Made by a program: the position numbers and the translations under genes. A stretch of DNA of 20,045 nucleotides, taken from IMG/VR virus record IMGVR_UViG_3300008267_000534, positions 1 through 20,045 of that record. One strand, given 5' to 3'. Below are positions 54 through 19,805 of this stretch, piece by piece. Source of the stretch: a virus. Position 1 is the stretch's first letter; each line of letters starts with the position of its first letter. The notes beneath the pieces were generated by a model. That model was not told the origin of the DNA. It did no database searches and worked only from the letters and a program-made list of their open reading frames with translations.

Positions 54-83
54 AATAAAATATAATTTAATAGTTAATATACA

Positions 84-112: not shown

Positions 113-127
113 ATGAGTTGAAAAATA

Positions 128-1024: not shown

Positions 1025-1032
1025 TATAAATA
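1025..1032 (-). promoter_or_regulatory. TATTTATA motif upstream of the 74-aa gene (candidate late promoter)
   Basis: An exact TATTTATA on the coding strand, 14 bases before the ATG at 1010, in the 34-base gap after the hub stop codon. It is one of five exact copies in spacers of this cassette. A partly overlapping TATAAATT follows on the same strand, so which octamer matters here is uncertain. Confidence 0.5.
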
Positions 1033-1044
1033 TATCGATTATTA

Positions 1045-4000
1045 TTAAATTGTTGATAAATATCCGTTAACTAATTTATAACTAGCCCGAACTTTTTCTT
1101 GTAATTTATTCAATTCATCGGGGTAAGATTTAACAAAATTTTGATATATATCTGAAGTTCCAGCAGTATTATCTTGTGGGAACTTTTCAATCCAAGTTTT
1201 AGTAAACCCTGTAACAAAAACATTTTCATTTTCTACATTAAGTAAATCGTCTATGAAAACTCTCAAATATTTAGAATAATTAAAATCAATTGCATTCTCT
1301 ATTGTTGGGAAAACTGCATATGCTTGACTATTATTCTGACTATCATTCAAACAAATGTATTCTTTACTGAAATATGAGGCAAGTTCTCCTCCCCAAACGG
1401 TTGTTCCACTTCCAATAGGAATTTGTGACGGGTTATTATTAAAATATTTAAATGATTGACCGTTGTATGATTCAATGTAAAATAATGTTGTTACAACAAA
1501 ATTCATAGAATCTCCACTATTACTACCTGAGTTAAACGCCCTTATTCTTGAACTTACCAACTGTAACATATCTCTTGTAGATGTTGTTGTTTCAGAAGCG
1601 TTAACTGAAGCATAATTTGAGTATTTGTCGTTTACTTTACATATTTTATTTGGGCTAGGTGTTTCTTTAGAGTTAACATTATTAGCAATACTATTCTTCT
1701 TTTGTATTGTGTTTGATGCAACTTTTTCCGCTTGTCGTTTTGTTTTTAAATCATTCTTTAATTTTTTAACAAAATTTTGTCTAATTGTTTCTAATAAAGG
1801 ATTTTTGATTGGTGGGGTATAGACTTTCTGTCTAGTTCCGACCATTGTAGTTTTAAAGTCACTAGCCGTAATTACATGACTAACTTCAGTAATTAAATAA
1901 GGCCCCGAGAACAAAGGAATATTTCTCAATACAAAATACATGGTTGGTTGTATCATTGCATTACCCATGGCAGTAACTGTTGAAGAATAACTTCTTGTTT
2001 TATATATGTTTATTAAACTAACGTTTTGGGTCGCAGTATTAGTACCTTTTGCAAGATTAGCAAGTTCATATTCCATTTTTAAAGATTCTGAAGTTGGTTT
2101 ACCGATATCTTGACCAACTTGTACATTTGTAAACACTCCTTGATTTTGTACACCGAAATCTACATTGAATCCAACAGCCTTATTAGACAAACCAAAATTA
2201 TCCTTTTTTTCACTACTTTCGACTAAAGGATTTTTTGGGGCTTGTTCAAAATCCCAACTATCATCTTTATACGCATTTTTTACATTTGGGTTATTTGTTT
2301 GTTCGGATGGCTGCTCAACATACTGACAAACCATTTTAGTTTTTGACTTTTGATAGTCAACTTCAGTATATGTACCAAATAAACTATTTGCAAAATCTTT
2401 ATTGTCGCTAGCTTGTTTTGACGGAGTATCGTCCACATTTTGACACCCATAAAAATTTATATATGTTGGCATATTATAAATTACAAAATGGTTTTGTTCT
2501 AAGATACTTGATACGATATTAAAAATTGAAGCTTTAGGATTTTTTTTCAAATAATTCATGACTGAAAAAATGTCAACTACAACTTTATTTCCAATGTCTC
2601 TATTTGCTCTATCAAGTAAAAGAATATCCTCAAACATTGTCTCATCGCTGTAATTATTTCCTGCAATCCATTTATCGTTCATTGCTTTAAATAAATTATA
2701 ATATTCTAATTTTGTAACATTTCCTTGTGTTTTTGAATCGTCAACTTTTTCTATTTGAGTGGATGAACTTTGTAACGCTCTTTGGATTTTACCAAAAACT
2801 CCCTCAAATAAAGTATTTCTTAAATTTAGAGTATTATTTACGTGGGTTGTTACATCTTGTATAAAATCAGCGTTATTGTAAGACGGATTTAATATCTTTT
2901 TGGTTGCATATATTTTAATCAAACCAGCAAACCTTTCTATATTTTCAATTGTAAACGCTATATTATTGTCAACAAAGAAATCAGTAATTGTTGACCCAGA
3001 GTCCGAATAAGTGGCAGATGTAATGGTAGAAAATCCAACATTTAAAAGTAAAGATGTCCAAGCTTCTTCATAACTAGTTTGTGAGTCTGCAAGTGTAATT
3101 GTGAGAGCACTTGTTGGTAAAGAATTTGGTGTAGTTGTGGTATATTCATCAGCACTTCCTTTTATACCGGGTAATGGATTATTTGTAAAATACGAAAAGG
3201 TTGGGTAATTAAAATTAGTCGGATTTCCTTTCTGATAAATTGTATTCAAATTTATATAGTTGTTAATGACTCCATTAAAATTCAATAATTGTGTAGTTTG
3301 AAAGTTTTCAATTAAAATATTTTGGTCATCATTTAAGAACGAATCTTTTTCCACTTTTAAAGCCTTTTTTAATATCGATTGTATATTAAAATCTGTTGTG
3401 GACTGTTGTTCGGACCTACTAAAATTTAAAAATTGATTCTCAAATAAATCTAACTCTTCTCTTGTGAACACTCCAAATAAATCCTCAATTTTATCTAAAG
3501 TTACATTTTCACCTAAATCATTTAATATAAAATGGAACGGCCAAGAATCAGTTTTAGTTCTTGACAAATATTCATCAGGTTCAGAAATATAATTTACAGT
3601 TGGGTAATATCCAAAATGTGTTCCTCCCCAAAATAATCTAACTGAACCATTGTATACGTTTTGATTATCAAAAACAGGGTATTCTAAAGCGTTTTGATTG
3701 AAGCATTCTGTTGAAACTTGGGAATATCTTGAGCCAAAAGAAGGCGCTGAATAATAGTAAACTGAAAGGTCATCATTAGCACTTCTGATTTTGTTTTTTA
3801 ATAAAATACTTATAGTCGAATAATTTAAAAAATGTTGGGGTCTTGCAGGGTCATAATCAACGTCTTTAAAAAATGAAGAATCATTATTACTTAATATCAT
3901 TATACTTTTATCAGTAATCTTTTCCTGTATTTCAAATTCCAAATTAGAGGCATCTTCATACAGGTTCTCATTATTAAAGAAATAATAAAAATCATTTAAG

Positions 4001-7000
4001 ACTACTGGATAAAATCCAACATTAACAATATCATTATAAAGTGGGGGATTAGCTGTTTGTGGAACTGTAACAACATCTGTTAATGTAATTGTAATTGCGG
4101 ACATTGTGCTAGCCGTGAAAAAATAACTTGTAGAGGTTGAAAAATTATTTGGGTCATAATTAGAGATTTGGTCAAATGGTCCAAGTACACTATCTAAAAA
4201 ATCAGTTCCTGTTTCTATGAAATTTTTATATCGATACCAAACACTTCCTATTTTACATGCCCACATTTTTGGTACGCTGTGTAAAGCTCCGAACTTATTA
4301 AAAGTAGGCCCAATATAATCTTTTACAGTACTATCAGAATCAATATATTGTCTTTTTAAATTAGCTAAAGGTAAACTATTCAAAAACAAATATGCCGCCT
4401 GAACATATGGATTACTACTATTAGCCTTATCGTTAGCAACACCTTCTTGAATTGCCTTTATGAACTGCGGACTGTTTAACATGGACGAGGTCTTTTCCGC
4501 AATTCTACCGTCAATACCTAATCCTGTTTCAGGATTTACCGCATCTATTCTCCCTTCAGTGTAAAAAGATTTTTTTTCTGAATCAGTATTTTTTGCTCTA
4601 TTTTTAAGATTTGTAAAAGCGTCTTGGAATATTGTTTGGTATTCTAATTTTGTTCCTGTATTAACAAAAAAATTAAATGGTCTATTTTTATTATTTTCTC
4701 CTTTATTTTCTAAGGTATAATCCGAAGCGTAGTTTAATATTTTTTTGAGTTTTGTATTATAAAATAATGATTTGGTGGCATTTAATACTTTATTTAATTC
4801 AAAATTTTGATTTCCATTACTCAAATTTGATTTATTCCAATCAGGGACAACAAATGGCATTATGTCTGTAAAATACAATTCGTTTTTATCTGAGGATTGC
4901 AAATATTTAACCATAGTTTCCTCAACCTCATTTCCATTATTTTCAGTAGCAATTGAAGCTTTAATTTCAGGTAATTCAGTATCTATAAATTTAAAATTAG
5001 ATTCTATTTCTTCTTTTAGATACGGGGTATAAATAGTCCCCGCACTAACGACAAAAAATGCCTTAGGGGCACTTTGTGAAAGATATGCCTCATATTCAAC
5101 TATCCCTCCTTTTTGACCAAAACCAAATTCTTTTAAAAATTCTGTAAGTTCGTTACTGTTTTTACCAATTGCAATTTTAATATTTGACGCTTCAAAAGCT
5201 TCTATAAAGTTTTCAATTGGAGCGGATTTTCCATTTCTTGCAAATCCCTGATACATTGAAATTGTTCTTATTCTTTCATATATTTCAATTAAGAACGGAT
5301 TTATTTGTAAATCAGAGTAAGATTTATTGCTTGCGGTATCAAAAGCTGATATTAATAATCTATTTATTGTCGTTTCATTAGATTGTGGGTTAGGTTTTAA
5401 AGCGTCCTGTTCTCTTTCTAAAAATCCTTTCTGGTACTCTTCAACAAATTCTACTTCAGGCCATACGTTATAATCAAATGCATTAGTCTCAAATATATAA
5501 TCAGGGTCTCCAGGGTATTTTATTTCAAACTTTGTTTCTCCATCTACAGGAATTTCTTTAGCAAACAAAGGCCAAGGGTAAACTGGTGAATCGGGGTCGT
5601 TTTTAACATCTTCTCCACATACACTTTTCTTTTTCGAATCGTTTCTCGCATCAAAAGCCTTTTTATGGACATCATCCATTAATCTTAAAAAAGCATCTGT
5701 AGATGCAAAAATTACTGCTAATATGTTTCTTATTGTCGGTTCAAATCCAATACCTTGGTTTGACTTGAGTAGATTATTTAACTCGGCGGATAAATTTTCC
5801 TCAATGGCATTTAATTTAGCGGTTAAAGTTTTTTCCAATTTAAAAATCTCATCCCTAAAAAATCCTTCTCCGTCAAACCTAAAAAAGAAAGGTACTTCTT
5901 TATTTTGTGGAGGTATTGTGTCGTCAGAATTTCTAGCATTTTCAACTGAAACTCTTATATTATCTAATTTTTGTAGTTCTGTTTTTATTGATTGGAATTC
6001 TGCGGGTGTAGGATTATTTTTACCGAATCTAGCCTTAGCGGTTTCGTATAAATCAATATCTCCTAAATTTGGTAACAGGTAAGGGTTAGGAATCATATTA
6101 GAATCCTTAATGTTTACAGGAATAACATCTTCTTTTTTTCCTACTTTTTGTCCAAATGTCGATGCTTGTTTAAGAATATCATTATGTTTAGTAATTAATG
6201 AATTTAATTTTGTTCTAGCTTCATCATATTTTTTAATATCGTTACCATTGATTATTGTATCTAAATAAGTGTAAACCTTTGAAGGTTTACCATCTCTTCC
6301 AATTACAACATAATATTTTGTTTCATTTAAAAACTCTTTAACCCATGATTTTGGAGACACTCCCGAATATATTTCAGCTAAATAATCGCTTAACAATCCC
6401 GAAAAAGCTTCTCCATCTGTTAGTTTTCCAACATCAATTTGCCCGTAAGTTTCTAATATATTTCTTTCAAAATTTTGAAGTCTTGAAACTAATTGGTCAA
6501 TTGTTAAAGTTGGGAAATCTTTACTAACAATGTTTTTACTTTTATACAATTCATATACACTTTGGATTGTTTTATACCCTCTTTTTTCGACAACTGATAC
6601 AATGTCGGCATTATCTCCATTAAGTTGGTCAACTGACCCTTGTGCTTGATTTGTAGGTTCTGTTTGTATATTAGTATTAACCTGTTGGGAATACATGTAT
6701 GGTAATCCAAGTAAAAACCCTTGTTGTATGTCTGTAAGAATATTGTATTTATATCCTACAAAGTTTAATGTGCTAATAAAATTACCTGAAGATTGGTCAA
6801 AAGATGCTTGGAACTTTTGGAGTATCAACGTATATCTTACGGCCTTTCCATAATACCCTTTTAGGGTTAAATAAAATGTTGGATACGGAAGATTTAAAAA
6901 TACTGAATATACTGAATCATTACCTGACTCAAATAAAGCCCTACCTCTTACGTCTTCTAAAGTTATATTAACTGTCGGGGTAAAACTTGCCCCACATTTA

Positions 7001-7335: not shown

Positions 7336-7648
7336 AATAGAAAAAATGTGTTTCGAGAGCTGACTTATAATCTAAGAGAGATGCTGTTAAAGGAAATGGA
7401 ATTTTAAGAGTTGTATTATCAGGAATATTAATCTCAGAACCTCCATATTCAGGATTTGCTTGTAGTATTAACCAACCAAAATAAGGACTTCCATAATAAG
7501 TTTGGGAAACTTTATCAAGACGAGATATTCCAAGACGATATATATACATTTTATCTGAACTTTTTGCAGGTAAAGTAACATACGGTATATTAACATATTC
7601 ACCATTAACTACCAAATTGGTATATCTATTAAAATATTGAGATGCCAT
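7325..7648 (-). CDS. Baseplate wedge protein, gp53-like with LysM fold
   Basis: This 107-residue protein is built around a LysM-type segment at about residues 40-90: SRLDKVSQTYYGSPYFGWLI, then LQANPEYGG and INIPDNTTLKIPFP. That is the order seen in LysM domains (start helix, YYG turn, ANP motif, 'IP..L.IP' end). T4 gp53 and related baseplate proteins of contractile machines carry a LysM-like fold that ties wedges to the central hub. At 107 residues it is about half the length of T4 gp53 (196), so only the core may be kept. Its ATG overlaps the stop codon of the cap gene (TAATG), and its end overlaps the hub gene by 11 bases, so the three genes form one coupled unit. No Shine-Dalgarno site is visible. 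The family assignment is from motif reading. Confidence 0.75.
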   Translation of the reverse strand: MASQYFNRYTNLVVNGEYVNIPYVTLPAKSSDKMYIYRLGISRLDKVSQTYYGSPYFGWLILQANPEYGGSEINIPDNTTLKIPFPLTASLLDYKSALETHFFYYGK

Positions 7649-10600
7649 TAATTATTAAATTGTTTTTTCCCGTTGAATAAATTTATGTCATTATTTGTAT
7701 TAACTGAACTGTAAACATTCATAATTCCTTGTTGTACTCCGTTAATCCCTGCTCCTTGGGTGGTAAAATTCATTACACGTTTTTTATTTTTAAGGCTAAC
7801 CCCGTTAACATCCAACGGATTAAAGTTTTCAAACTCTTTGTACCCAGTGGTTCCTTTAAAATCTTTTACTGATTTTATTTCAGCCTTCTTTAAATCATCA
7901 AAGGTTTTTTTCCAATTATTATCTATAAAATTATTAATTAACGTTTTTGACACTTGTAAAAATTCGGACTGTACATTATTGGTTAACCCATTAACAAAAT
8001 TTTGTCTTTTTTGGGTGTCCAATATTTCATTACAAAATATTGTATATACATATTTGTCAACAGAATTTGTAAATGGAATTATTGGATTATATTGTGTAGT
8101 ATTTCCAGTAATTGAGCTGCCTGAAAAATATATTTTATTATCAACAAGTACAGCGTATCTACCTAAAGAATCGGCAACTGTGCGGTAATCCTCTCTTAAA
8201 ACATCCATTGAACTTATGTTATTATCTAGTACACCTGATAATAAGTAAGTTTTTGGTTCTCCGTTCGCCAAAATTTTACCGTCACCTAATGCAGTTACAA
8301 TATCCATTTTTGCCATAATATTTACGTATTCCACTTGGAAATTTGTAAGGTTTTGGATATATGTTGCAACTGAAGTAAAACTTTCAGAAATTATTTTATT
8401 AATATATGATTTATAGTTTTCTTTTATCTTTATTTTTACCAATGGTTGTAACGCCGACAAATTTATTTGTGAGGTTAGGTTTTCTGTTCCGTCATCTATG
8501 GCGGCCTTTATAATATTTCCAACAACATTTAAATTAGTTTCCCAGCTTCCAGGTTTTCCATATATGTAAGTTGGGTAATCATTTAGATAATATAAATTAT
8601 CATAAAATCCATTATTATAATATCTATCTCTATTAACTTGAGACCAAAGACCTATATTATACTCGTTAACAAAACTTTCATAAGAATTTGTTACAATATT
8701 GAAATATTCTTTTGTTTTATCAACATAATTATTAAAGAATTGTGTGTACTCGGTTGTTCCTGTTTCAACTCCTGAATTGTCTCTTGTTGACGTTAGAAAC
8801 ACCCCAAGTATTGTTCCTCCTTCATTTTGGACTGTATCGTTAACATTATTTATTGTAACTAAAGGTTCTTCATTTCTTAATGAATTTATTAGCGCTTTAT
8901 CAACAGCTTCTGTGGATTCTGTCTCTTCAGCTCTATCATCATACATTTCAGTATTAGCGTAGTAATTAAAAGATAAAGCGTTTTGTAACCTTTCAACAGG
9001 TCCTTTTAGACCATGCCCACCAATCATATTAAAACTTAAAGTTACTTTTGCAATCATAGGTTGGAATCCTATACCTTCAGGATTAAGGTCCCATAAATTT
9101 TCATAATTTATCTGAAGTGAATTTGGAATAATTTTAGTATTGTAAAAATCTCCAAACCTTAAAACCAAGACAGGTGGTGTACCAAAGTTTGTGTTGAAAG
9201 CATCTTTATCTTTTAATAGTGTGTCGGATTCACTTCGAGTTGGAATTGTTCTACCTGGTCTAACGCATTGGTTAAGAAATACAAGTCTTGAATTTAGTCC
9301 TTCAGGTGTAATTGAGTGAAAAGCCGGATTAAAGAATTTGAATTTTTTTCTAAAACTTTCGTAAAGAAAAGAATCTTCTTTTTTAATTACCTCAAAATAG
9401 TCAGATTCAGTTAACAACTTTCTGATTATTTTTTTACTTACTCCTTTAGTTGTTGATGTAATATCTTTATTTGGTGGTTTTGGTTTTTGACCAACCAGAG
9501 CGTCTTGGTTAGGGATATTTTCATTACTTGTGGTACTTGGTCCTGATTGTTGTGAAGGTGGTATTGGTTGTACTGAAATATTTTTAATTCTTACTGCTCT
9601 ACATGCGGTACCTCTTAATGAAAACCTAACGTTTTCATTCTGAGATGGGTTAATACAACTTAATTCATTACCTGACCCATTTGATGTAATTAAATTATCT
9701 CCCTCAAGAGTTCCTAAATCCTCTCTTTTGAATATTATTTTTTTATCATCAATATAGTTTTGTATTTTTCTATTGTTCGAAAGTGTTGCTTCTGAGAAGA
9801 ATAATACTACTGAATCCGCCCAATCATTAGAAATTTCTGTATTACTCGCTCTTCCCAAAATTTTTGTTCCGTCTAAAGTAATCTGAATAATTCCTTTGTT
9901 ATTTTCCAAAATGTCCATTACTTGAGTTCTTAGCTCAACCATTTTATTGTAATTATTTGGTAATGCGTCACTAAAGAAAACTTGTAATTCAGGGTAAGAT
10001 TCTGTGTACGCAGAAGCAGATGCGGTATAAGAAGTGTAAATTATTTCATAATTAGTAAAAGATTCATTACCTGAAAAATCAGGAAAATAAAATCCGTAAT
10101 TAATAAAAACATCAAAAGGACTTGTCGGGTCTTCACTTACACTTGGTGCCCCAGTGTCACCGGCATTATTCATAGTCTCTTTTTTAGCGTCTGTTGTCGT
10201 ATTATTACTCTGTAAAATTTCTTGGTAAGCACTTTCAATAGTTGACCTATCTAAAGTATTGAAATTTTTTGCAATTTCGTATATGTCATATTTTTTTAAT
10301 CCTGCAAAAAATGAGGCAAGGACTTGGGTAACGGTGTTTTCGTCACTTTCATTTTGTAGTACTTTTTTAACAACTAAATCTGTAATAGATGGGTGGTCAA
10401 CAATTATACTCCAACTAATACTTCCACTTCTATCAGTACTTTCATAAGTGTAAATCGGTTCTGGTCTACCTAAAAAATTGTTAGCATTAAATCTTGGACT
10501 AGAACTTTCTTGACCTAAATTCACATCATATGGTGGAAACCACATGATTCTCCCTCCATTTGGTCCTTTTTCACATTCAGGTAATTCACCAAATTCAGGT

Positions 10601-12510
10601 GTTCCTCTCCATGCTAGATTTTCAATTGAAAACATGTATTTTTTAACACTACCGTCCTTGATGTTTGTAGATTCGTTTCCTGTTGTTGGTGCAATGTTGA
10701 GATTATAGGTTGAATCCAGAATAGAATATGTTGATTTTCTTATATTTCCATTTATTGCCGCCCCGTCTTCATTTGCAACGTCAGATTGAAGGTTTTGAAA
10801 ACTTAGATATGGGGAGTCTTTGGTAAATAATCTTCCATATTCCATTCCAATTTGCGACCCTCCAGATGTTACATACTTTCTAACCGCAGAACCTTTTGTT
10901 AATTCCTTATATCCATCATTAAAAACTTTACTAACTTGATTCATTGCATTACCAACATGGACAAGTCTTTTTGGTCCAGACGCCGGTGCCGAATCAATAA
11001 TTCTTTGTGTTTTATCTAATAACGAACCTTTTCTAAACTCATACCTCGTTGATATTGAGCCGTTAAACTTACTAGATACATCCCCTCTAAAGGATGGGTT
11101 AGAACCAAACCCTGTTTCTCCACCAGGACCCATTTTTTGACCCGCTTGTTGTACATTCTTGTTACTAACCCAAGTAAATCCACCAGTAAGATTTTGGTCA
11201 TCAATATAAGCGTTTGTATTTGGTCCAAATTTAATATTACTAACAATGTCACCCTCAAACTCTTTTGCCATTGCATCAGGTCCAAGAACCGTTGTATGTG
11301 TCTTGTTACCGTATTCGTCAGTTGGGACTAAACTTTCAGGTGAATTAATTATTGTTGGGTCAGATGTTTGATTTCCAATGTATTGGTTTCCAATATTATT
11401 GTCTTTATCAAAAATATTGTCTATGGCAAGTCCAACTTGTGTGGTATTTTGTTCGTAGTACGGTTTAAACTTATTAAATCCAAGGTTATTAAATAATGCG
11501 GTTTTTTGTCCACTACCTGTATTATTTAAAAATTTAATTGGTACGACACCTGTTGTAGTAAGTGGGGTTGTTGATTTATTATTTTCGCCTTCTAATTGTT
11601 GGTCAGGTTGCATATTGTACCTAACAGGTTCTGTTAGATAGGAACCTTCAATTGGTGAAACAGGAATATAAGTACCTGTAAACTTTTGTATTAAAAAAGC
11701 GGTTTGGTCAAAAACTCCGTCAGGTACTGTAATTGTATAATTTTTATATATTAAAGGTTGTTGTCCTGAAATAAGTAAAGATGCACTGAATATATCCTGA
11801 AATGCCCCTAAGTTTACTTTACCTATGGTATTTTTTGTTAGTTCCCTTCTAACTCTTTCCAAAAAAGCATCTGCCACATATGATGCCGATATTTGAGCCA
11901 AGTATGAGTCTTGTGGTAATTGACCTGAAATACCTAATAAATTAATTATACCTACTCTTTGGGGGGTTAAAAGATTGATATCGGGAATTGTAAAGTTTGG
12001 GTATTCTCCCCCAATATCTGTAACACCTTTTAATATAGTATCTGTAGCATAATATGAATACGAATATCCATTCTGAGGAGTATATCTATTTATTACAGCG
12101 GCAGTATCAATTAAAAATTCGTTTACTAATTCTAAATTTGCGTATTGGTAACTGTATTCTACTTGTTGTTGAGAGCCTCTTAACTGTACACTTCCTGTTC
12201 CGGCTTGTTGCATAGATACCGCACCAGCCGACGAATTTATAAAATCCGCAACATCTTTTTTCTCGGGTGTACCATAAATATTAACTAAAGTTGCCTCTTT
12301 AACGGAATCAAAAACAGTAAGATTTAAATCAGGTGAATCTATTGGAGATTGGTCTGAAAGAGCATATTCAAAATATCTATTATTTTCGTCAGCACTAAAA
12401 GCACCTTCAACAACATATGGTTTTAAATTTCTAGAAACTAAACTATTTCTAAAATTTAGAGACCCGTTAAAGGTTAATAAATTTTGAACTTGTGGGGTGT
12501 TTTCCGCCAT
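7648..12510 (-). CDS. Large baseplate tube-cap-like protein with degenerate OmpA-like domain
   Basis: A 1620-residue structural protein. Residues about 620-710 contain the segment FSIENLAWRG, GGRIMWFPPYDVN, FLGRPEPIYTYEST and WSIIVDHPSI, which I recognise from large baseplate/tail-cap proteins of contractile phages. Residues about 835-925 look OmpA-like: LQVFFSDALP strand, a helix, IIQITLDG strand, then N890-x2-I-S-x2-W897-A-D-S-V, where canonical domains have N-x2-L-S-x2-R-A. The binding Arg is thus Trp and the Asp of the preceding loop is absent. Residues about 1060-1190 carry FHSITPEGLNSRLVFLNQC, WDLNPEGIGFQPMIAKVTLS and ALSFNYYANTEMYD, another conserved baseplate block. The C-terminal 430 residues are unassigned. 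Position between tape measure and gp53-like gene suggests the gp48/gp54 role of capping the tube at the baseplate, though it is about four times longer than either. The ATG lies 14 bases after a TATTTATA motif. Confidence 0.75.
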   Translation of the reverse strand: MAENTPQVQNLLTFNGSLNFRNSLVSRNLKPYVVEGAFSADENNRYFEYALSDQSPIDSPDLNLTVFDSVKEATLVNIYGTPEKKDVADFINSSAGAVSMQQAGTGSVQLRGSQQQVEYSYQYANLELVNEFLIDTAAVINRYTPQNGYSYSYYATDTILKGVTDIGGEYPNFTIPDINLLTPQRVGIINLLGISGQLPQDSYLAQISASYVADAFLERVRRELTKNTIGKVNLGAFQDIFSASLLISGQQPLIYKNYTITVPDGVFDQTAFLIQKFTGTYIPVSPIEGSYLTEPVRYNMQPDQQLEGENNKSTTPLTTTGVVPIKFLNNTGSGQKTALFNNLGFNKFKPYYEQNTTQVGLAIDNIFDKDNNIGNQYIGNQTSDPTIINSPESLVPTDEYGNKTHTTVLGPDAMAKEFEGDIVSNIKFGPNTNAYIDDQNLTGGFTWVSNKNVQQAGQKMGPGGETGFGSNPSFRGDVSSKFNGSISTRYEFRKGSLLDKTQRIIDSAPASGPKRLVHVGNAMNQVSKVFNDGYKELTKGSAVRKYVTSGGSQIGMEYGRLFTKDSPYLSFQNLQSDVANEDGAAINGNIRKSTYSILDSTYNLNIAPTTGNESTNIKDGSVKKYMFSIENLAWRGTPEFGELPECEKGPNGGRIMWFPPYDVNLGQESSSPRFNANNFLGRPEPIYTYESTDRSGSISWSIIVDHPSITDLVVKKVLQNESDENTVTQVLASFFAGLKKYDIYEIAKNFNTLDRSTIESAYQEILQSNNTTTDAKKETMNNAGDTGAPSVSEDPTSPFDVFINYGFYFPDFSGNESFTNYEIIYTSYTASASAYTESYPELQVFFSDALPNNYNKMVELRTQVMDILENNKGIIQITLDGTKILGRASNTEISNDWADSVVLFFSEATLSNNRKIQNYIDDKKIIFKREDLGTLEGDNLITSNGSGNELSCINPSQNENVRFSLRGTACRAVRIKNISVQPIPPSQQSGPSTTSNENIPNQDALVGQKPKPPNKDITSTTKGVSKKIIRKLLTESDYFEVIKKEDSFLYESFRKKFKFFNPAFHSITPEGLNSRLVFLNQCVRPGRTIPTRSESDTLLKDKDAFNTNFGTPPVLVLRFGDFYNTKIIPNSLQINYENLWDLNPEGIGFQPMIAKVTLSFNMIGGHGLKGPVERLQNALSFNYYANTEMYDDRAEETESTEAVDKALINSLRNEEPLVTINNVNDTVQNEGGTILGVFLTSTRDNSGVETGTTEYTQFFNNYVDKTKEYFNIVTNSYESFVNEYNIGLWSQVNRDRYYNNGFYDNLYYLNDYPTYIYGKPGSWETNLNVVGNIIKAAIDDGTENLTSQINLSALQPLVKIKIKENYKSYINKIISESFTSVATYIQNLTNFQVEYVNIMAKMDIVTALGDGKILANGEPKTYLLSGVLDNNISSMDVLREDYRTVADSLGRYAVLVDNKIYFSGSSITGNTTQYNPIIPFTNSVDKYVYTIFCNEILDTQKRQNFVNGLTNNVQSEFLQVSKTLINNFIDNNWKKTFDDLKKAEIKSVKDFKGTTGYKEFENFNPLDVNGVSLKNKKRVMNFTTQGAGINGVQQGIMNVYSSVNTNNDINLFNGKKQFNN

Positions 12511-12524
12511 TTAATTCTTTTTTC

Positions 12525-12532
12525 TATAAATA
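12525..12532 (-). promoter_or_regulatory. TATTTATA motif upstream of the cap gene (candidate late promoter)
   Basis: An exact TATTTATA on the coding strand in the 37-base gap between tape measure and cap genes, 14 bases before the ATG at 12510. The bases between motif and ATG are A-rich (GAAAAAAGAATTAA) with no Shine-Dalgarno match. Confidence 0.5.
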
Positions 12533-12547
12533 GAATGGATAGCGTTT

Positions 12548-15500
12548 TTATGAAGTTAATCCAAGTGCGGCATCTTTAACCGCTTTAGCAATCGCTTGTT
12601 GTATATTATTATCCGATTTAAGAACATTTGATAAAGTATTGGTATCAATAGTTGTAGGTAAGTTAACAAATTTATGTATGACGGTAACTTCTATCGGAGA
12701 GCCTCCTTCGACTGTCATTTTCTTTTCTACAGTTTCCCCCGGTTTTGTTTCTGCCGCAGTTTCTCCGTATCCTCCTTGAGGAGCGGCACCTATAGGACTC
12801 GGTAAGGCAATTTGAGACAAATCTTCAGGAATACCCTCCTGTATTAATTCAGGAGTTTCAGTTTCAAATCCTCCTTCAATTGTTTCTGTGGGTGTAATTT
12901 GTGTTTCTTCAGGTAAAGTGCCATAACCTTCAAAAGTCTCCTCAGGTTCTTCATATGGAACTTCAGGTGTTGTAATTGTTGGTTCTTCCTTTCCAAAACC
13001 AAATAATCCCCCAATTTTTTGACCCATTCCAGCAAGTTTTTCAATTCCTCTTGCCGGTGTTTCAGGTGTTTGTTCTTTTAATCTTAATTCTTCTAAGAAA
13101 GCTAATTGTTTTTCTCTGGCTTCTCTGATTGTTTTTTGTATTTCAGTTTCTTCAGGTTCTTTAATTTCTTCAGGTTTACCTGAAAATGGTTTTATTGTTC
13201 CATCTTCCGCAAATTCAGAAACAGGTTCAACCGGCCCAAAATCTTCCTCATCTTCAAAAATATTTTCGATATTAGAAGCAACAGGTTTTGTTTCCTCGAC
13301 TTCTAAACTAGCTTTTGGTGGTGCGGGTAACTTTTGACTAAACATACTCATATCCAACCCAAATGGGGAAGTTTTTTTACCTGTCAAAAATTTATCAGCC
13401 TCTTTATCATTCTCATCCAACATTTTCAAATACCCTGATTCTTCTTTTTGGGTTTCCTCTGTTGGTTTTACCTCTTTAGGTTCCTCAATTGTTATTTTTG
13501 CTTCAGATTCGTCAGGTTTTTCTTCTATTAATTTTTTAAATCTATCTTTTAATCTTTCTTTAAATGGGGTTTTTTCTTCGGCTTCTGCCGCAGCCTTTTC
13601 AACTCCAACTGCCGGTGTTTCAGGAACTGTAGGTGTAACTGTTTGAGTTTCTTCTTCAACTGTTATGGCTCTTCCTCCAGCCATTTTCCTTGCAGTTTCT
13701 CTATCTATACTTTCTCCAACTATATTACCTTCAGCATCTCTTGCAACAAAAGTTTTAGTAGTTTCAGGTATGGGGGTAATTGGTTTTTCTTCTTCTTGTT
13801 TTCCTTTTAACTTTTCTTTTAATCCTCCAATACCTTCTTTTATTCTTTCCCCAAGTCTTTGTTTTTCTTCTTTCTCAGGAATAGGTAATGATGCAAGAGC
13901 TGGTTTAATTGGGGCTAATCCTTTGTCTTCAATTAATCCTTTTGATTCAATTTTTTCTAAATCTTCAATTGGTTGTTCGCTTTGTTCAGCAATATATTTA
14001 CCCAAAATACTTGGTTTAAAATCGAATAACTTTTCACTAGTTTTTTCAAGTTTTTTTGTTTCAAGATTATTAAATGTATTATTTTCAGGTCCTATTAATT
14101 CACTTCCCTTTTTACCTTCCTCTATCATTTCAGGGGTAAGGAAAAATGCTTCTTTACCTTGTCCAACTATTTCAGCCCCACTAATTTCTTCCAATAATTT
14201 TTTGTATCCTTCATAAGCAGATGGTTCTTCAGACTCAACAGGTTTACCCATTGACATAATTTTATCCAAAAATCCGCCCTTTGTTTGTGGTTCGCCTGAT
14301 TGTACCTCGGGTAATTCCTCGGTAACCTCAGGTAATACAGATTCAATATCAATTGCAGGAGTTGGTTCTTGTGTTGCTTCAGGTAGTTCTTGATTAAATA
14401 AAACTTCCTTACCTGTCGAAACCGTAGGTTCTCCAACTATTCCTTCATCAATTAATTTTTGAACTTGTACATTGACGGGTTCTCCTTCTTTAACCTCTTT
14501 AGTTGCACCTAATAATTTAGTTAATTCAGGTCCTATATTTAAATTTTTAACATTTAAATTTTCAACTTCAGATGTATTAACTTTAAGTTCGGTTTCAGGT
14601 TGTATTTCTTGAGTTGCAATATTTTTTAACTCTTCTTGATTTACACCAAGTTCGGTTGCGGTTTTATCTAAATTAGTTAGTCCTTCTTCAGTACCTATTT
14701 CACCTGGTGTGTATTCCTCTTCAGGTAGTACAAATGTCTGTTCTTCCGCTTTAGGTTCTATAAATGATTTAACAAACGCATCTTTGATTTTAGAGAACCT
14801 TCCTTTCTTTTCTTCTTCAGGTTTTTCTTCAGTTTCAACTTTTCCCTCTGATATAAATTTACCTAAAATACTTGGTTTTTTATCAAATAATCCTTCTTCA
14901 GTTTTTCCCTCAGGTTTACCTAACTCAATTTTTGGTTTTTCTCCTAATCCTCCTATTTTTAAATCGGATATTTTTTGTAAACTACTTTCAAACCCTTGGA
15001 GTAAATCTGTTTTAGGTTCTTCTGTTTTAGGTTTTCCAAATAGACCAATTTCAGGTAATTTAAATTCTGATATCTTTTGTAAACTACTTTCAAAACCTTG
15101 GAGTAAATCTGTTTTAGGTTCTTCTGTAGGAGCAGCTTCAACAGGTTGGATTTTTAATTCTTGTACAAAATTGTTAAATTTCTCAAGAAATCCTGTTTCA
15201 GGTTCTGTTGTTTTAACTTCTTTTATTTCGGGTAATTCTCCTGTTAATTCAGGTAATTCTTGATTAAATAAAACCTCATTTCCTGCACTAGCAAGAGGTT
15301 CACCGACTAAACCTTGTTCATATAATTGTTTTATTTTTTCTACATTAGCTAAGAGTTGTGGGTCTTCAAATGGATTCGCTATAGTCTCACCTTTGACTTC
15401 ACCTGTTGGTTTAGTTCCAACTTCGGGAGTGACATTTGTTGGTGTTATTGTTGGTGTTGGGGTAGGTGCAGTTAAATTAATTCCTTCTTCAACTATGATT

Positions 15501-17338
15501 TTTCCCGCTCGTATTTCTTTACTTTCAACATTATCAGGGAAAATTAATTTTGTTTCTTCTTCCGTTTCAGGTTTTTCAACAATAATTGATGAAGTTTTAA
15601 TTTCCTGTGTATTAACTGAATCAGGGAATATTAATTTATTTTCATCAGGAAATATTGTTTTATCTTCTTCGGTTTTTTCTCCTTTTAATTTTTCATCAAC
15701 TTTGTCTTTTAATTTTGCGGCCTCTGCTTCGGCTTTTTCTTTAGCAGTTAAAAAAGATTCCTCAATTTGTTTTTTGTACGCATCAATATCTATTCCAAAT
15801 AACTCAGAAAAACCTGTAAGACTATCTCCAACACCTTCAGCAATTTGTTTGCCCATTCCCTTTGAAAGGGTTCCAAATGCCTCTAATAATTGTCGTCCTC
15901 CCTCTTCCTTCTTTCCTTTTTCAGGACTTGTTAGATTTTTAAAAGCTTCTTCAAGTTTAACGGCGGTTTCATCAAATGTATTTGTTAAACCTTTACTATC
16001 GGGGCCTAACTTTTCAGTTAAAGGTTCATTAATTTTTTCTGCAAGAGCCTTTGCCGATTGTAAAACTTGTGGTCCAATTTTTGACGCTCCTGCCGCAAGT
16101 CCTGGTGACGCAACTAAAGCCTCACTAGCCTTTCTAATACCTGTTAAAACATCAAGTTGTTCTTGAGCAATTTCCTCAATTGTTTTTGGTTGTTTGCTCT
16201 TATCTAAACCCGTTAAATATTCTTTTAAACCAGCTTCATCCCCTTTAAATTGTTCCATCACCTCTTGGATGGTCTTACTTACAGGTTTTCCGTCAGCACC
16301 TATTTCTTCAGTCTGTATTTTATATTCACCGCTATCAGTCATTGTTGCCATATTGGCAACCATTTCTTTGGTGTCTTCACTTACTTCAAATCCTGAGAAA
16401 GATATTTCTGAAAGTTTTTTGTCAAGGTCTGCAGTACCAAGAGCCATTCTTTGTACTTCTTCTATACCCATACCAAGTTCACCAGCAATTTCTTTTAATT
16501 GCCTTCTAGCACCTGGCATTATTTGGAATGTTTTGGTCTTTTCGTCAAAATAGGTGTACTGTTTGAACATCTCACCCAATTGTTTCTGTAACTCAGGAAC
16601 ATTGTTTTGAGCAAGGTCCATAAGTTTCAATGGGTCAAGTAGGTCGGTTGAAGTTGCTCCTAATCTTTGTAATGCGGCGGACATCTCAATCGCACCTTCA
16701 GGTGACATCAATTTGTCGGCAACATTAAATGTTGACTGCATGTCAACTCTAAGAGCAGTGGCCTTAGCCGCCATTCTTGCAAGACCCTCAACTCCTCCTT
16801 GGAAACCGTAACTATTTAACTTATCTAAATTTTTGACTACAGAGTCTGATACTAATTTTGCATTTACACCTAAACTATTTGCAACATCTCTTACTACTAA
16901 CATTTGTTTCGAGATGTCTTTTAGAGACATACCGGCATTTAAAAATCCGGTTTCTAATTCTTCAATTGACCTTCCTGAAACTTGTGAAGCCGCAAATAAT
17001 TCTGTAGTTAAATTCTGAGAAAGAGTAACATTCTTTCCCATTACTTTTAAAGTGTCTAACTGAACATTAAGGGCGGATTTAGCGTCTCCACCCATTTTGA
17101 TTGTTTCAATTGTTGCTCCAGCTAAATTTTTTCGGATGGCTTCCGACATATTTTCGCCGGCACCCATAGAATTAACAATGGACCTAAACCCTTGGTCCAT
17201 TGCAACAATTCCTTGTTCAATTTTAACCAAGGGTTTATCCATTAAACCCTCTACACCAGCTATACTTTCTTTTAGATTAAATATTGTTGACTCTATTTCC
17301 TTAGCGGCTTCCTGGTTGGGTCCTGTTTCTTGCATCAT
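12548..17338 (-). CDS. Tape measure protein with long Pro/Glu-rich repetitive middle
   Basis: A 1596-residue protein directly after the chaperone genes and before the baseplate genes, the standard place for the tape measure, which fixes tail length inside the tube. Residues 1 to about 530 are helical and tape-measure-like (for example ANSLGVNAKLVSDSVVKNLD, MSAALQRLGATSTDLLDPLK). Residues about 530-1510 are low-complexity and acidic, dominated by P, E, K and T. They contain an exact 34-residue tandem unit start (EEPKTDLLQGFESSLQKIS twice), paired copies of KLIFPD(S/N)V, paired FDxKPSILGK(F/Y)I, and paired VGEP...EVLFNQELPE. The last 50 residues are again folded-looking (IEVTVIHKFVNLP to the C-terminus). 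T4 gp29 is only about 590 residues. Two ATGs stand in tandem at the start (17336-17338 and 17333-17335); the first lies 4 bases after a TATTTATA motif, so the second is possible. No obvious membrane segment. Confidence 0.85.
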   Translation of the reverse strand: MMQETGPNQEAAKEIESTIFNLKESIAGVEGLMDKPLVKIEQGIVAMDQGFRSIVNSMGAGENMSEAIRKNLAGATIETIKMGGDAKSALNVQLDTLKVMGKNVTLSQNLTTELFAASQVSGRSIEELETGFLNAGMSLKDISKQMLVVRDVANSLGVNAKLVSDSVVKNLDKLNSYGFQGGVEGLARMAAKATALRVDMQSTFNVADKLMSPEGAIEMSAALQRLGATSTDLLDPLKLMDLAQNNVPELQKQLGEMFKQYTYFDEKTKTFQIMPGARRQLKEIAGELGMGIEEVQRMALGTADLDKKLSEISFSGFEVSEDTKEMVANMATMTDSGEYKIQTEEIGADGKPVSKTIQEVMEQFKGDEAGLKEYLTGLDKSKQPKTIEEIAQEQLDVLTGIRKASEALVASPGLAAGASKIGPQVLQSAKALAEKINEPLTEKLGPDSKGLTNTFDETAVKLEEAFKNLTSPEKGKKEEGGRQLLEAFGTLSKGMGKQIAEGVGDSLTGFSELFGIDIDAYKKQIEESFLTAKEKAEAEAAKLKDKVDEKLKGEKTEEDKTIFPDENKLIFPDSVNTQEIKTSSIIVEKPETEEETKLIFPDNVESKEIRAGKIIVEEGINLTAPTPTPTITPTNVTPEVGTKPTGEVKGETIANPFEDPQLLANVEKIKQLYEQGLVGEPLASAGNEVLFNQELPELTGELPEIKEVKTTEPETGFLEKFNNFVQELKIQPVEAAPTEEPKTDLLQGFESSLQKISEFKLPEIGLFGKPKTEEPKTDLLQGFESSLQKISDLKIGGLGEKPKIELGKPEGKTEEGLFDKKPSILGKFISEGKVETEEKPEEEKKGRFSKIKDAFVKSFIEPKAEEQTFVLPEEEYTPGEIGTEEGLTNLDKTATELGVNQEELKNIATQEIQPETELKVNTSEVENLNVKNLNIGPELTKLLGATKEVKEGEPVNVQVQKLIDEGIVGEPTVSTGKEVLFNQELPEATQEPTPAIDIESVLPEVTEELPEVQSGEPQTKGGFLDKIMSMGKPVESEEPSAYEGYKKLLEEISGAEIVGQGKEAFFLTPEMIEEGKKGSELIGPENNTFNNLETKKLEKTSEKLFDFKPSILGKYIAEQSEQPIEDLEKIESKGLIEDKGLAPIKPALASLPIPEKEEKQRLGERIKEGIGGLKEKLKGKQEEEKPITPIPETTKTFVARDAEGNIVGESIDRETARKMAGGRAITVEEETQTVTPTVPETPAVGVEKAAAEAEEKTPFKERLKDRFKKLIEEKPDESEAKITIEEPKEVKPTEETQKEESGYLKMLDENDKEADKFLTGKKTSPFGLDMSMFSQKLPAPPKASLEVEETKPVASNIENIFEDEEDFGPVEPVSEFAEDGTIKPFSGKPEEIKEPEETEIQKTIREAREKQLAFLEELRLKEQTPETPARGIEKLAGMGQKIGGLFGFGKEEPTITTPEVPYEEPEETFEGYGTLPEETQITPTETIEGGFETETPELIQEGIPEDLSQIALPSPIGAAPQGGYGETAAETKPGETVEKKMTVEGGSPIEVTVIHKFVNLPTTIDTNTLSNVLKSDNNIQQAIAKAVKDAALGLTS
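14973..15127 (-). repeat. Two-copy direct repeat inside the tape measure gene
   Basis: A 53-base block at 14973-15025 recurs at 15075-15127 with a single mismatch, offset by 102 bases (34 codons, in frame). At the protein level the two copies share EEPKTDLLQGFESSLQKIS exactly, while the rest of each 34-residue unit has diverged (EFKLPEIGLFGKPKT versus DLKIGGLGEKPK). This indicates a recent tandem duplication in the low-complexity region. Confidence 0.9.
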
Positions 17339-17342
17339 ACTC

Positions 17343-17350
17343 TATAAATA
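17343..17350 (-). promoter_or_regulatory. TATTTATA motif upstream of the tape measure gene (candidate late promoter)
   Basis: An exact TATTTATA on the coding strand in the 21-base gap between the 45-aa ORF and the tape measure gene. It ends 4 bases before the first ATG and 7 before the second. If it is a -10 element the transcript would start at or within the first start codon, so this copy implies a leaderless message, use of the second ATG, or a non-promoter role. Confidence 0.45.
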
Positions 17351-17359
17351 ATTAATAGA

Positions 17360-17497
17360 TTAGTTTTTTGGCGTATTACGTTCAATAATTTTATCCACCA
17401 AATATCGTCTCTGATATATAGGTAATTTCATAAAATCAGAGTATGATGTATGTAAGTACTTGCCCAATATATAGTATTGGTCAAGAAGTGACAACAT
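17360..17497 (-). CDS. Hidden 45-aa ORF between gp26-like and tape measure genes (possible chaperone frameshift extension)
   Basis: An ATG at 17495-17497 opens a 45-residue frame ending in TAA at 17360-17362. The peptide begins MLSLLDQYYILGKYLHTSYS, continues DFMKLPIYQRRYLVDKIIER and ends NTPKN. Its aromatic, basic, helical character with 'LP.Y.RRYLVDKI' resembles the short second cistron often found just before tape measure genes in tailed phages. The ATG lies 4 bases after the stop of the gp26-like gene. The same frame stays open upstream to a TAA at 17549-17551, reading through T6C at 17516-17522. A +1 or -2 slip there would fuse the two proteins through the sequence FFALSSNYM. The chaperone-extension role is inference; coding of the ORF itself is likely from position and composition. 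Confidence 0.65.
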   Translation of the reverse strand: MLSLLDQYYILGKYLHTSYSDFMKLPIYQRRYLVDKIIERNTPKN

Positions 17498-17501
17498 GTA
17501 A

Positions 17502-18254
17502 TTAGAAGAAAGGGCGAAAAAACTCAGCCCCAAAGGCGATTTTAACCATTACCTTTTTTCCTGACGGGGCTGTTACTTCACGGTTTAAATCTATTCTTGG
17601 TTCATTAGTATTCAAAAAGTTTTTAATGAACTTAGAATCCATGATTGGCATTTGCTCAATAAATTTAGCAATCTCCCCTTTATCAGTACTTCCATTTAAT
17701 TCTACAATCTGTTTTGTAAGTCTCCAAGTTACTTTTGGTGCAACCATATTTGATGGATACTCATCGGCCATTCTTTCAATGTCAGTACTTTCACCGTAAG
17801 ATAAAGGTTTCAATTTAACAGATGCCCCTGATTTTGGAAGTTTTGTAACATAATGACCGTTGTCATCAGGTTCAACTTCAGGTTTTCTAAAAGACAATTC
17901 GTCAAGTAGTACCGCTTTTTCAAACTTACTTCCAGTATCTGGGTCGGTAAGATTAAAATTATACTCAGTACCAAAAGAAGTATTTCTTAAAAACAATAAA
18001 ATTGCCTCAATGTCCCCTTCTAACATATCAGAAGGATTCAAATCGGGTTCATATAGTTTACTTCTAACAAGTCGTAAAACAAGTTGTTCACCTGATAATT
18101 TACCAACACTACCAAGTAAGTTTTCATCGGCAGCCGTTAGATACCCAACTTTTACACTTTTTTTCTTACTTTTGTAAAATTTACCTTGGCTAGGTAAAAC
18201 AACCACATCGTGTGGTAAATTAAAATTTTCTTGACCTGCAATTTGTTCGTTCAT
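17502..18254 (-). CDS. T4-baseplate-family protein (gp26-like), probable tail assembly chaperone
   Basis: A 250-residue protein showing the pattern of the T4 baseplate (gp26-type) family. Near the N-terminus it reads VVVLPSQGKFY and VGYLTAADENLL (residues about 18-46); the middle has EAILLFLRNTSFG and LKPLSYGESTDIERMA; the C-terminus has NFLNTNEPRIDLN and the small-domain ending PSGKKVMVKIAFGAEFFRPFF split over residues 230-250. In T4 gp26 helps assemble the baseplate hub. In many other phages the gene between tube and tape measure is the tail assembly chaperone, and this position suggests that job here. It begins 13 bases after a one-mismatch version of the TATTTATA motif and directly downstream of the tube terminator. 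Its last codons include a T6C run where slippage into the following 45-aa frame is possible. Confidence 0.8.
   Translation of the reverse strand: MNEQIAGQENFNLPHDVVVLPSQGKFYKSKKKSVKVGYLTAADENLLGSVGKLSGEQLVLRLVRSKLYEPDLNPSDMLEGDIEAILLFLRNTSFGTEYNFNLTDPDTGSKFEKAVLLDELSFRKPEVEPDDNGHYVTKLPKSGASVKLKPLSYGESTDIERMADEYPSNMVAPKVTWRLTKQIVELNGSTDKGEIAKFIEQMPIMDSKFIKNFLNTNEPRIDLNREVTAPSGKKVMVKIAFGAEFFRPFF
17516..17522 (-). other. Candidate slippery site (T6C) for programmed frameshift
   Basis: In the gp26-like frame the codons are GAG TTT TTT CGC. A +1 slip at TTT-T, or a -2 slip of TTT onto TTT, enters the frame of the downstream 45-aa ORF (TTC GCC CTT TCT). Tail assembly chaperone genes commonly use -1 or other shifts at this position (lambda G/T, Mu -2). 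The site does not fit the canonical -1 X-XXY-YYZ heptamer in phase, and no stimulatory structure was identified. Confidence 0.35.
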
Positions 18255-18267
18255 AATTAATTTTTTT

Positions 18268-18275
18268 TATAAAAA
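18268..18275 (-). promoter_or_regulatory. One-mismatch TATTTATA motif (TTTTTATA) upstream of the gp26-like gene
   Basis: On the coding strand TTTTTATA lies 13 bases before the ATG at 18254, close to the 14-base spacing at two other genes. It overlaps the U-tract of the terminator that follows the tube gene, so terminator and putative start signal are fused. One mismatch and the low-complexity background make it weaker than the exact copies. Confidence 0.35.
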
Positions 18276-18299
18276 AAAATCCGCACAAAGTACGGATTT
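18270..18299 (-). terminator. Rho-independent terminator after the tail tube gene
   Basis: About 30 bases past the tube stop codon the minus strand forms AAATCCGTAC-TTT-GTGCGGATTT, a 10-bp stem with a three-base loop, followed by nine T residues. One pair is a U-G wobble in the minus-strand RNA but would be a C-A mismatch in the plus-strand RNA, supporting minus-strand action. Confidence 0.8.
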
Positions 18300-18328
18300 G
18301 TAAATAGTAATTGGAATTTTTTTCTCGA

Positions 18329-18817
18329 TTAGTATACAAGAACACAATAGTCAGGACGGAGAGTGGCAACAATTTTTGCCAAACCATCTTGACCGTAATC
18401 AAGACCTTGAAAATCCACATCAGTTAGGAAAGTTCCTACCAATATCCATTTTTCTACAACAACACCTGTTGGGTCTAAAAGTTGTAAAGTTACATCTTTC
18501 TTATAACCCGCAGCATAACCCATACGACCTGTTACTGATTCAGCATGTAGACGTACCCACTCCATAAGAGCTTGAGCAGCTGAAGGTCCAATTGGGTCAC
18601 GGAAAGTACAGTTGATAGTGTTCCAAGTGTAACGACCAGCAACGTATCTTTCAGTGTTGAGAAAAGGAATTGGTGTTGAACCAATTGTGATTTTTGGTCT
18701 AGAAGTAGATTCTACATACCATTCGTTGATACCGAGTTCACTAGGGAAACTAAGTATGAACCTGTTCATCCTTTTGGGTTCATACGGTATCGGCATTTTC
18801 ATCAGTAAATCAGCCAT
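18329..18817 (-). CDS. Tail tube protein (gp19-like)
   Basis: A 162-residue protein, almost the length of T4 gp19 (163), with the family's layout: a beta-rich start (MNRFILSFPSELGINEWYVE), the signature YVAGRYTWNTINCTFRDPIG, then an amphipathic helix (AAQALMEWVRLHAESVTGRM), a YAAGYKKDVTLQLLDPTG strand pair, and a terminal beta region (LTDVDFQGLDYGQDG onwards). The subunits stack as hexameric rings to form the inner tail tube, around the tape measure and inside the sheath. The gene sits alone between a 124-base spacer and a strong terminator, and has a 37-base A-rich leader after a TATTTATA motif. Three 60-base lines of it are about 40, 42 and 52% GC by hand count, against 25% for a sampled line of the hub gene. 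Such codon choice and its own terminator suit a very highly expressed protein. Confidence 0.93.
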   Translation of the reverse strand: MADLLMKMPIPYEPKRMNRFILSFPSELGINEWYVESTSRPKITIGSTPIPFLNTERYVAGRYTWNTINCTFRDPIGPSAAQALMEWVRLHAESVTGRMGYAAGYKKDVTLQLLDPTGVVVEKWILVGTFLTDVDFQGLDYGQDGLAKIVATLRPDYCVLVY

Positions 18818-18854
18818 TTTCTTTTGTTTTTAAATTCTGTTTGTTTATTTAATT

Positions 18855-18862
18855 TATAAATA
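18855..18862 (-). promoter_or_regulatory. TATTTATA motif upstream of the tail tube gene (candidate late promoter)
   Basis: An exact TATTTATA on the coding strand, 37 bases before the tube ATG, preceded by a long A-rich stretch (about 18864-18904) that could act like an UP element. The downstream leader is nearly all A with few C or U. The rest of the 124-base spacer (18818-18941) shows no ORF and no convincing hairpin after the HAD-fold gene. Confidence 0.5.
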
Positions 18863-18941
18863 GTGTTAGTTTTTATTTTTTTCTCTTTACTTTAATTTTT
18901 TTTTCAGTCAAACTTACACTAGTCTTACCTATATAATTATA

Positions 18942-19757
18942 TCAATATTTCTTTTTTACACCTCCATGTGTAGAATACATTTGAACAATATTTTCTGGGT
19001 CATCTTTTAAAGAACTTTTCATCTTTTCTAAATTTCTTAAATCATCATCAGAAAATCCTATCGTTGGTATGAATTTGTTACTTACATCGTTTTTAAGGTA
19101 AGGTGTTTGTCCAAGTTTTTTTGCCATATTCATGACATATTTTTGAAATTCCCTTATAGCGTCTACTTTTCCTTGTTCGGGACTTTGTGCTGAACCGGCT
19201 CCATAAGTCACAGGATAATATTTATTCATATTTAAATATGTTTCCACAAGTTCTGAGTCACTTAATTCATCTTCACCGGCAAGTTCTCTATATTTCTTTA
19301 AATTGTGAACGAGTTCTTTCTTAGAAAGACCCTTATAACCAACTTCAATAAGATTTTCGATAGCTTGTTTAATAGTTTCAGGAGAATGTCCTCTTGCTGT
19401 TATAATAGAGAAAATAGACCCTCCATTAATACATTCTAAAAAATCATCCCATGCCGGACCAGTTTTAGCCAAAAGAGAGTCAATTATAAATTTTTTATTT
19501 CCTTTTTCAGAAAAATTTCTAAAAGGGTCTTTTGCAAATCCAACAATAGTTTTACCCTTGTATTCAAAATCTTCTTTACCAACTTTTACACGATATTCGG
19601 CAAAATCCTCTGTTCCCATACCAACTTCATTTCCTTCAGAATCTTCTAAAATAATCTGAGTTGGCATATACATTAAATTATCGTCCCAATCAAAGGCATA
19701 ATATTTTAAGTCAGGAGTTAATTCTTCAGTAAAACCTTCTGTAATTATCAATTTCAT
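18942..19757 (-). CDS. HAD-superfamily phosphatase-like protein
   Basis: A 271-residue protein with the HAD active-site motifs in order: motif I YAFDWDDNL (D23, D25), motif II FSIITARGHS (T120), a candidate motif III lysine in PEQGKVDAIREF (K197) and motif IV IGFSDDDLRN (D237-D239). HAD enzymes use the first Asp as nucleophile and Mg2+ to cleave phosphate esters, so a phosphatase acting on a nucleotide, nucleic-acid end or protein is plausible; the substrate cannot be read from sequence. The roughly 95 residues between motifs I and II would be a cap insertion. It lies between sheath and tube genes, which are adjacent in T4 (18 and 19). It follows the sheath terminator and has a TATTTATA motif 4 bases before the ATG. 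The N-terminus MKLIITEGF carries an I-T-E triplet like prohead-protease cleavage sites, perhaps by chance. Confidence 0.8.
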   Translation of the reverse strand: MKLIITEGFTEELTPDLKYYAFDWDDNLMYMPTQIILEDSEGNEVGMGTEDFAEYRVKVGKEDFEYKGKTIVGFAKDPFRNFSEKGNKKFIIDSLLAKTGPAWDDFLECINGGSIFSIITARGHSPETIKQAIENLIEVGYKGLSKKELVHNLKKYRELAGEDELSDSELVETYLNMNKYYPVTYGAGSAQSPEQGKVDAIREFQKYVMNMAKKLGQTPYLKNDVSNKFIPTIGFSDDDLRNLEKMKSSLKDDPENIVQMYSTHGGVKKKY

Positions 19758-19761
19758 ATCT

Positions 19762-19769
19762 TATAAATA
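19762..19769 (-). promoter_or_regulatory. TATTTATA motif upstream of the HAD gene (candidate late promoter)
   Basis: An exact TATTTATA on the coding strand, 4 bases before the HAD-gene ATG and about 12 bases after the stem of the sheath terminator. As there is a terminator just upstream, the HAD gene needs its own start signal or read-through; this octamer is the only candidate seen. Confidence 0.5.
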
Positions 19770-19772
19770 TAT

Positions 19773-19805
19773 TAAAAATAAAAAACCCCCGTTTCCGAGG
19801 GTTTT
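19773..19805 (-). terminator. Rho-independent terminator after the tail sheath gene
   Basis: On the minus strand AAAACCCTCG-GAAA-CGGGGGTTTT forms a 10-bp stem capped by a GAAA (GNRA) tetraloop and followed by TTTTTTATTTTT. The single U-G wobble becomes a C-A mismatch and the tetraloop is lost on the plus strand, so it is oriented for the minus-strand sheath transcript. It lies about 20 bases after the sheath stop codon. Confidence 0.9.

Follow-up and report, generated by a model that had tools for sequence, protein, structure and literature searches.

The octamer TATTTATA very probably serves as the start signal for the late genes of the phage studied here, and from sequence comparison it seems to be common to a large group of T4-like phages whose hosts are apparently Bacteroidota. 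We consider it likely, with good confidence, that the octamer belongs to a T4-style TATTTAT(A) late promoter, read by a phage factor of the sigma-2 type in concert with host RNA polymerase. In this scheme, TATTTAT(A) would be the -10-type element of a phage-specific promoter, host RNA polymerase carrying the phage factor would melt the DNA at the octamer with no -33/-35 element, and transcription would begin about 4-5 nt past it, while early and replication genes would be driven by host-type promoters (TTG-N20-TAHHTTTG-like). Within this reading we infer the transcription start, the use of the host polymerase, the sigma assignment and the late timing, the last from gene content only.

Placement of the octamer in the window

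The window is a whole IMG/VR virus fragment of 20,045 bases with its genes on the minus strand. It holds the end of a tail sheath gene, a 271-aa gene, a tail tube gene, a hub-like gene, a 45-aa ORF, a 1596-aa gene at the tape-measure position and additional genes of the tail/baseplate region, and at the left end an SSB gene begins, with SSB families matched by its ortholog in G001, the nearest relative. Relatives of its tail tube occur in Flavobacterium phage immuto and in Rhodothermus phage RM378; RM378 is the reference phage of the branch named Far-T4 in the literature (PMC4360716), and the window appears to belong to this branch. The sequence of the host-type promoters and the host of immuto suggest the host phylum. 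The 45-aa ORF (17360-17497, minus strand), flanked by the hub-like gene and the gene at the tape-measure position, had no Pfam match; immuto has a small hypothetical gene annotated at the same place in the gene order. The features on which the analysis draws are as follows.

1025..1032, minus strand: putative TATTTATA late promoter element, exact match, 14 nt to the ATG (1010) of a 74-aa gene at 786-1010
12525..12532, minus strand: putative TATTTATA late promoter element, exact match, 14 nt to the ATG (12510) of a 1620-aa gene at 7648-12510
17343..17350, minus strand: putative TATTTATA late promoter element, exact match, 4 nt to the ATG (17338) of the 1596-aa tape-measure-position gene
18855..18862, minus strand: putative TATTTATA late promoter element, exact match, 37 nt to the ATG (18817) of the tail tube gene
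19762..19769, minus strand: putative TATTTATA late promoter element, exact match, 4 nt to the ATG (19757) of the 271-aa gene at 18942-19757
5028..5035, minus strand: TATTTATA inside a 2096-aa gene, exact match (CDS density about 0.05 per kb)
6746..6753, plus strand: TATTTATA in opposite orientation inside the 2096-aa gene, exact match
18329-18817, minus strand: tail tube gene, tail tube family match
18277..18299, minus strand: intrinsic terminator after the tail tube gene, from a terminator scan, hairpin conserved in relatives
19782..19805, minus strand: intrinsic terminator after the tail sheath gene, from a terminator scan, hairpin conserved in relatives
82..112, minus strand: TTG-N20-TATTATTG, a promoter of the host type, ahead of the SSB gene (start at 53), with a counterpart in G001

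Five of the seven upstream gaps in the window hold an exact coding-strand TATTTATA. The original prediction had placed exact copies at these five positions, together with an extra copy within a gene at 5028-5035, and exact matching recovers all of them, the five lying 14, 14, 4, 37 and 4 nt from the ATG. It had also noted, by eye, no copy in the opposite orientation and stated that every gap is marked, and here it needs correction, as one copy occurs on the plus strand within a CDS (6746-6753) and the seventh gap (54-127), before the gene starting at 53, has none. Both copies inside the 2096-aa gene are probably there by chance. Density of the octamer is 2.9 per kb in gaps compared to 0.05 per kb in CDS, either strand. 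Among the six gaps tested, five had a copy, while dinucleotide shuffles, the control that had been proposed, gave 0-3 and did not reach even four gaps in any of 20,000 trials. Across the whole window the octamer occurs 7 times against 3.3 expected, a count reached in 8 of 100 shuffles. This total is unexceptional; the significance of the motif in the window lies in its placement.

The copies before individual genes recur in relatives. TATTTAT is also found upstream of those orthologs of the 1620-aa gene that share its ATG start (L083, L100, L001 and L124), and two of these loci, L083 and L001, retain it before the ortholog of the 1596-aa gene. For the tail tube gene it is present in 76 of 99 distinct ortholog upstream regions, and for the 271-aa gene it lies 4-6 nt from the ATG in nearly all close relatives.

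A one-mismatch copy, TTTTTATA (18268..18275, minus strand), had been counted among the promoters and was rejected. It forms the T-tract of a terminator (stem 18299-18277) and is not conserved, with TATTTAT at the equivalent position in 2 of 88 distinct ortholog upstream regions. It follows that one copy (19762), rather than two as first claimed, truly stands after a terminator. The gap before the hub gene (18255-18328) places a terminator immediately ahead of that gene; a conserved TATTTACA lies at 18299-18306, just 5′ of the hairpin, and TATTTAC is retained in this gap in 36 of 108 relatives. An early k-mer candidate, GTAAATAG, was dropped, as 0 of 108 hub-gene gaps contained it. The SSB gene, whose start in window positions 1-127 reads MATNSLDAVLAQYEKAK, is the only replication gene in the window and uses a host-type promoter, making it the contrast case to the late motif; at the same place before its SSB ortholog, G001 has TTG-N20-TACTTTTG.

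The motif in related genomes

Two scans yielded 159 related loci, and whole contigs were fetched for seven metagenomic relatives as well as for immuto, RM378 and T4. Octamers were counted in the gaps before genes with no motif supplied, using gene starts from a simple ORF script. In the 159 loci, TATTTATA and its frame-shifted neighbours came out on top (265 distinct gaps compared to 27 expected), in agreement with the claim that the motif is commoner in gaps than chance would allow. The relatives are not fully independent, and the result was repeated in eight genomes, the seven metagenomic ones and immuto, with TATTTAT at or near the top of the k-mer counts in gaps. Each metagenomic genome has the motif in 11-31 gaps (1.5-5.9 expected) and immuto in 25 (2.9 expected), where an early motif ranks first. 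As a positive control, the same procedure applied to T4 returned TATAAATA in 16 gaps against 2.1 expected, with other words ranking higher. A substitution at any of positions 1-7 lowers the count to about the expected value or less, leaving a few variants with a small residual excess. Position 8 shows enrichment of each of the four bases, which leaves TATTTAT as the core; the predicted octamer stands in its first seven bases, and its eighth is weakly specified. About 53% of non-abutting gaps have neither the late nor the host-type motif, and the motif was absent from the 40 kb examined of LR756508 (484 kb). In a phage recorded from Microcystis (Mel-JY01, L424), ATATTTAT occurs in 6 of 23 gaps where 1.0 is expected (40 kb).

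The distribution of the motif follows the units that would need a promoter. Only 1 of 186 abutting genes carries it, compared to 15-60% of tandem gaps of at least 10 nt. Tandem gaps contain 246 copies in sense and 59 in antisense relative to the downstream gene, short convergent gaps all together contain 6, both strands counted, and the position of the motif is distance-locked to the downstream ATG. Within the structural regions of immuto the motif is present in 20 of 36 gaps, compared to 13 of 80 elsewhere (p=3.5e-5), and the early block is marked by a second motif, TTG-N20-TATWTTTAGGTATCAATAATT, with the opposite enrichment (p=9e-4). At 66-76 kb of immuto (L201), about 20 near-identical early promoters of the form TTG-N20-TATWTTTAGGTATCAATAATTAAAA stand before small genes.

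The flanks of the late sites have a character of their own. A TTG at -25 to -20 is seen in 18 of 160 late sites and in 13 of 160 at a control offset, compared to 50 of 80 host-type (TAHHTTTG) sites and 23 of 23 immuto early sites with a TTG 20-25 nt upstream. G+C falls to 4-9% three to five bases past the octamer, against a background of 27%, and a second AT-only zone lies 14-17 nt upstream. With no TTG and with an AT-only stretch downstream, these sites point to a -10-only, phage-specific late promoter of T4 architecture, and the prediction of a late promoter of altered specificity lacking a -35 element is supported; TTG occurs in late sites at about the control-offset rate.

Three other readings of the motif were weighed against these data. 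Closeness to start codons, along with the use by Bacteroidota of ribosomes without Shine-Dalgarno pairing (PMC6847099), would suit a ribosome-binding element that acts in translation initiation rather than a promoter. Abutting genes need translation as well, yet 1 in 186 has the motif; the distance to the ATG ranges from 3 to over 35 nt and the 19762 copy comes after a terminator, and we find this reading highly improbable. If the motif were a degenerate host -7 element (TAHHTTTG) recognized by unmodified host sigma, this would account for the similarity of ATATTTAT to TAHHTTTN and for the TA directly before the octamer in 46 of 160 sites. Most sites lack that upstream TA, however, and the last position lacks G, all seven core bases are strictly conserved, and the TTG 20-25 nt upstream that typifies host-type sites in the same genomes is missing, all of which makes an origin as a host element very unlikely. 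The original prediction had also offered exact T4 octamers pointing antisense, since the opposite strand reads TATAAATA. This has next to no chance of being correct: orientation tracks the downstream gene (246 sense, 59 antisense), position is locked to the ATG of that gene, and the ATG side is where the AT-only stretch is found.

Spacing offers a further prediction from the late-promoter reading. The distance to the ATG is bimodal, either 3-4 nt or 12 and more; measured from the heptamer in gaps of at least 30 nt, 31 sites lie at 4-6 nt, 14 at 7-12 and 83 at 13-18. TATAAATA in the same genomes has no bimodal ATG spacing, and in T4 late sites the distances begin at 13 nt. An ATG occurs at 3-4 nt in 2 of 121 sites with a farther start, which argues that the close starts are not chance ATGs. 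Transcripts of F. johnsoniae start 4-5 nt past the -7 element (PMC6847099), and if the phage holoenzyme starts in the same manner, messages of the close class would begin at the AUG. An octamer 3-4 nt from the ATG would then give a leaderless message, and leaders elsewhere would be about 8 nt or longer. The bimodal spacing therefore predicts leaderless late messages, among them those from the 17343 and 19762 elements, and lends indirect, sequence-level support to the earlier suggestion of leaderless transcripts.

Candidate sigma factors

A sigma-like family of 234-257 aa is conserved in these genomes (the immuto member, gp118, is annotated as hypothetical) and is the likely reader of the motif. 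Searching with the family's own profile recovered it in all larger relatives except G001, whose contig lacks the gene and the whole conserved block around it; because the entire block is missing, this contig is probably incomplete. RM378 has a distant homologue (E 4e-6). In an AlphaFold model with a mean pLDDT of 78.6, residues 29-130 align to sigmaE region 2 with -10 DNA (4lup) at Z 10.1 and rmsd 2.4 over 91 residues, and on the basis of this model we assign the protein a sigma region 2 fold. Foldseek alone with the model gave no E below 0.001, and the family profile had no match among PDB sequences. For the C-terminal domain, the fold matches are weak (Z about 5) and fall on the sigma54 core-binding and sigma-H regions.

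A search for a gp55 homologue had been proposed, and it was answered in part, with a sigma-2-type candidate found and direct homology to gp55 being weak. With E values from 7e-6 to 0.015, the gp55 profile phrog_234 matches the family in 12 of 23 records, many of which are fragments, and the same profile also matches 7 of 14 control genomes. Alignment of the family to T4 gp55 with hhalign gave a weak E of 0.05. Given this weakness, we do not file the protein under the gp55 family. No match to phrog_12791 was found in these genomes. In ten genomes nothing exceeded the cut-off for gp45 (PF02916) or a beta clamp, with the T4 gp45 control positive, although a diverged clamp is possible.

The reader of the late promoter might instead be a modified host sigma or a second phage sigma, an RpoD-like protein of 264-272 aa. 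The RpoD-like protein occurs at G001:29971-30789 (L163) and also in G004, G008 and G010, is a clear sigma-70 family member in these four and in RM378, and is the sole sigma on the contig of G001, the nearest relative of the window. Searches for it gave no hit in immuto, G002, G005 or G009, yet all four carry the motif, and the late sites lack the TTG element that would be expected if a full sigma with region 4 read them. For these reasons we regard such a reader as unlikely and continue to favor the 234-257 aa sigma-like protein.

Relation to known promoters

T4 late promoters have an octamer at -10 with AT-rich DNA just downstream and no conserved -35 (PMC2988020). The element described here resembles the T4 late promoter (TATAAATA; gp55, gp33, gp45) in its -10 octamer, in the lack of a -35, in its AT-rich downstream DNA, in lying upstream of virion genes and, likely, in having a reader of the sigma-2 type. 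Read in the same direction, the two octamers differ at two bases only, positions 4 and 5, which are AA in T4 and TT here. The A at -8 of the T4 octamer enters a deep gp55 pocket (PMC7892883), and this A would be retained in TATTTATA if the numbering is the same. Unlike in T4, the core here comprises seven bases, and ATG spacings of 3-4 nt occur, which T4 sites do not show. The candidate sigma bears only a weak relation to gp55 and carries an additional domain at its C terminus, and a gp45 clamp was not detected. T4 late promoters are activated by the gp45 sliding clamp, with transcription beginning about 5-6 nt past the octamer. The T4 consensus itself, sense TATAAATA, is at or a little above expectation in these genomes (at most about threefold).

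Cyanophages such as S-PM2 likewise have a T4-type octamer, NATAAATA, before late genes (PMC2984593), however, that word retains the central AAA and cyanophages have gp55, gp33 and gp45 homologues. The Bacteroidota sigma-A promoter (TTTG ... TAHHTTTG) shares with the late motif an eight-base -7/-10 element and AT-rich upstream zones, and promoters of its type precede other genes of these phages, whereas the late motif does without a TTG 20 nt upstream and does not end in TTTG. In RM378 (L397-L403), a related motif, TATTTAA, is found upstream of genes (31 compared to 2.7 expected); its seventh base is A rather than T, and the signal is partly palindromic with more antisense copies.

Among open-licence papers, we found no earlier report of a TATTTATA/TATTTAT phage promoter or of any Far-T4 promoter, and a 2015 survey of Far-T4 phages did not detect the T4 transcription-regulation genes and left the transcription pattern open (PMC4360716). 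We speculate, as a tentative proposal that is somewhat less than even in our estimation, that Far-T4 late transcription is clamp-free and uses a diverged sigma of two domains, sigma-2 and a new C-terminal one, that recognizes TATTTAT alone and gives rise to a large class of leaderless late mRNAs in Bacteroidota, where ribosomes work without Shine-Dalgarno pairing. For the Far-T4 phages, our results provide a testable set consisting of a late promoter word, a spacing rule, a candidate sigma (gp118 of the cultured phage immuto) and a prediction of leaderless messages. They suggest a possible route for a T4-like late system to operate without a sliding clamp, and they could supply an orthogonal promoter-sigma pair for use in Bacteroidota.
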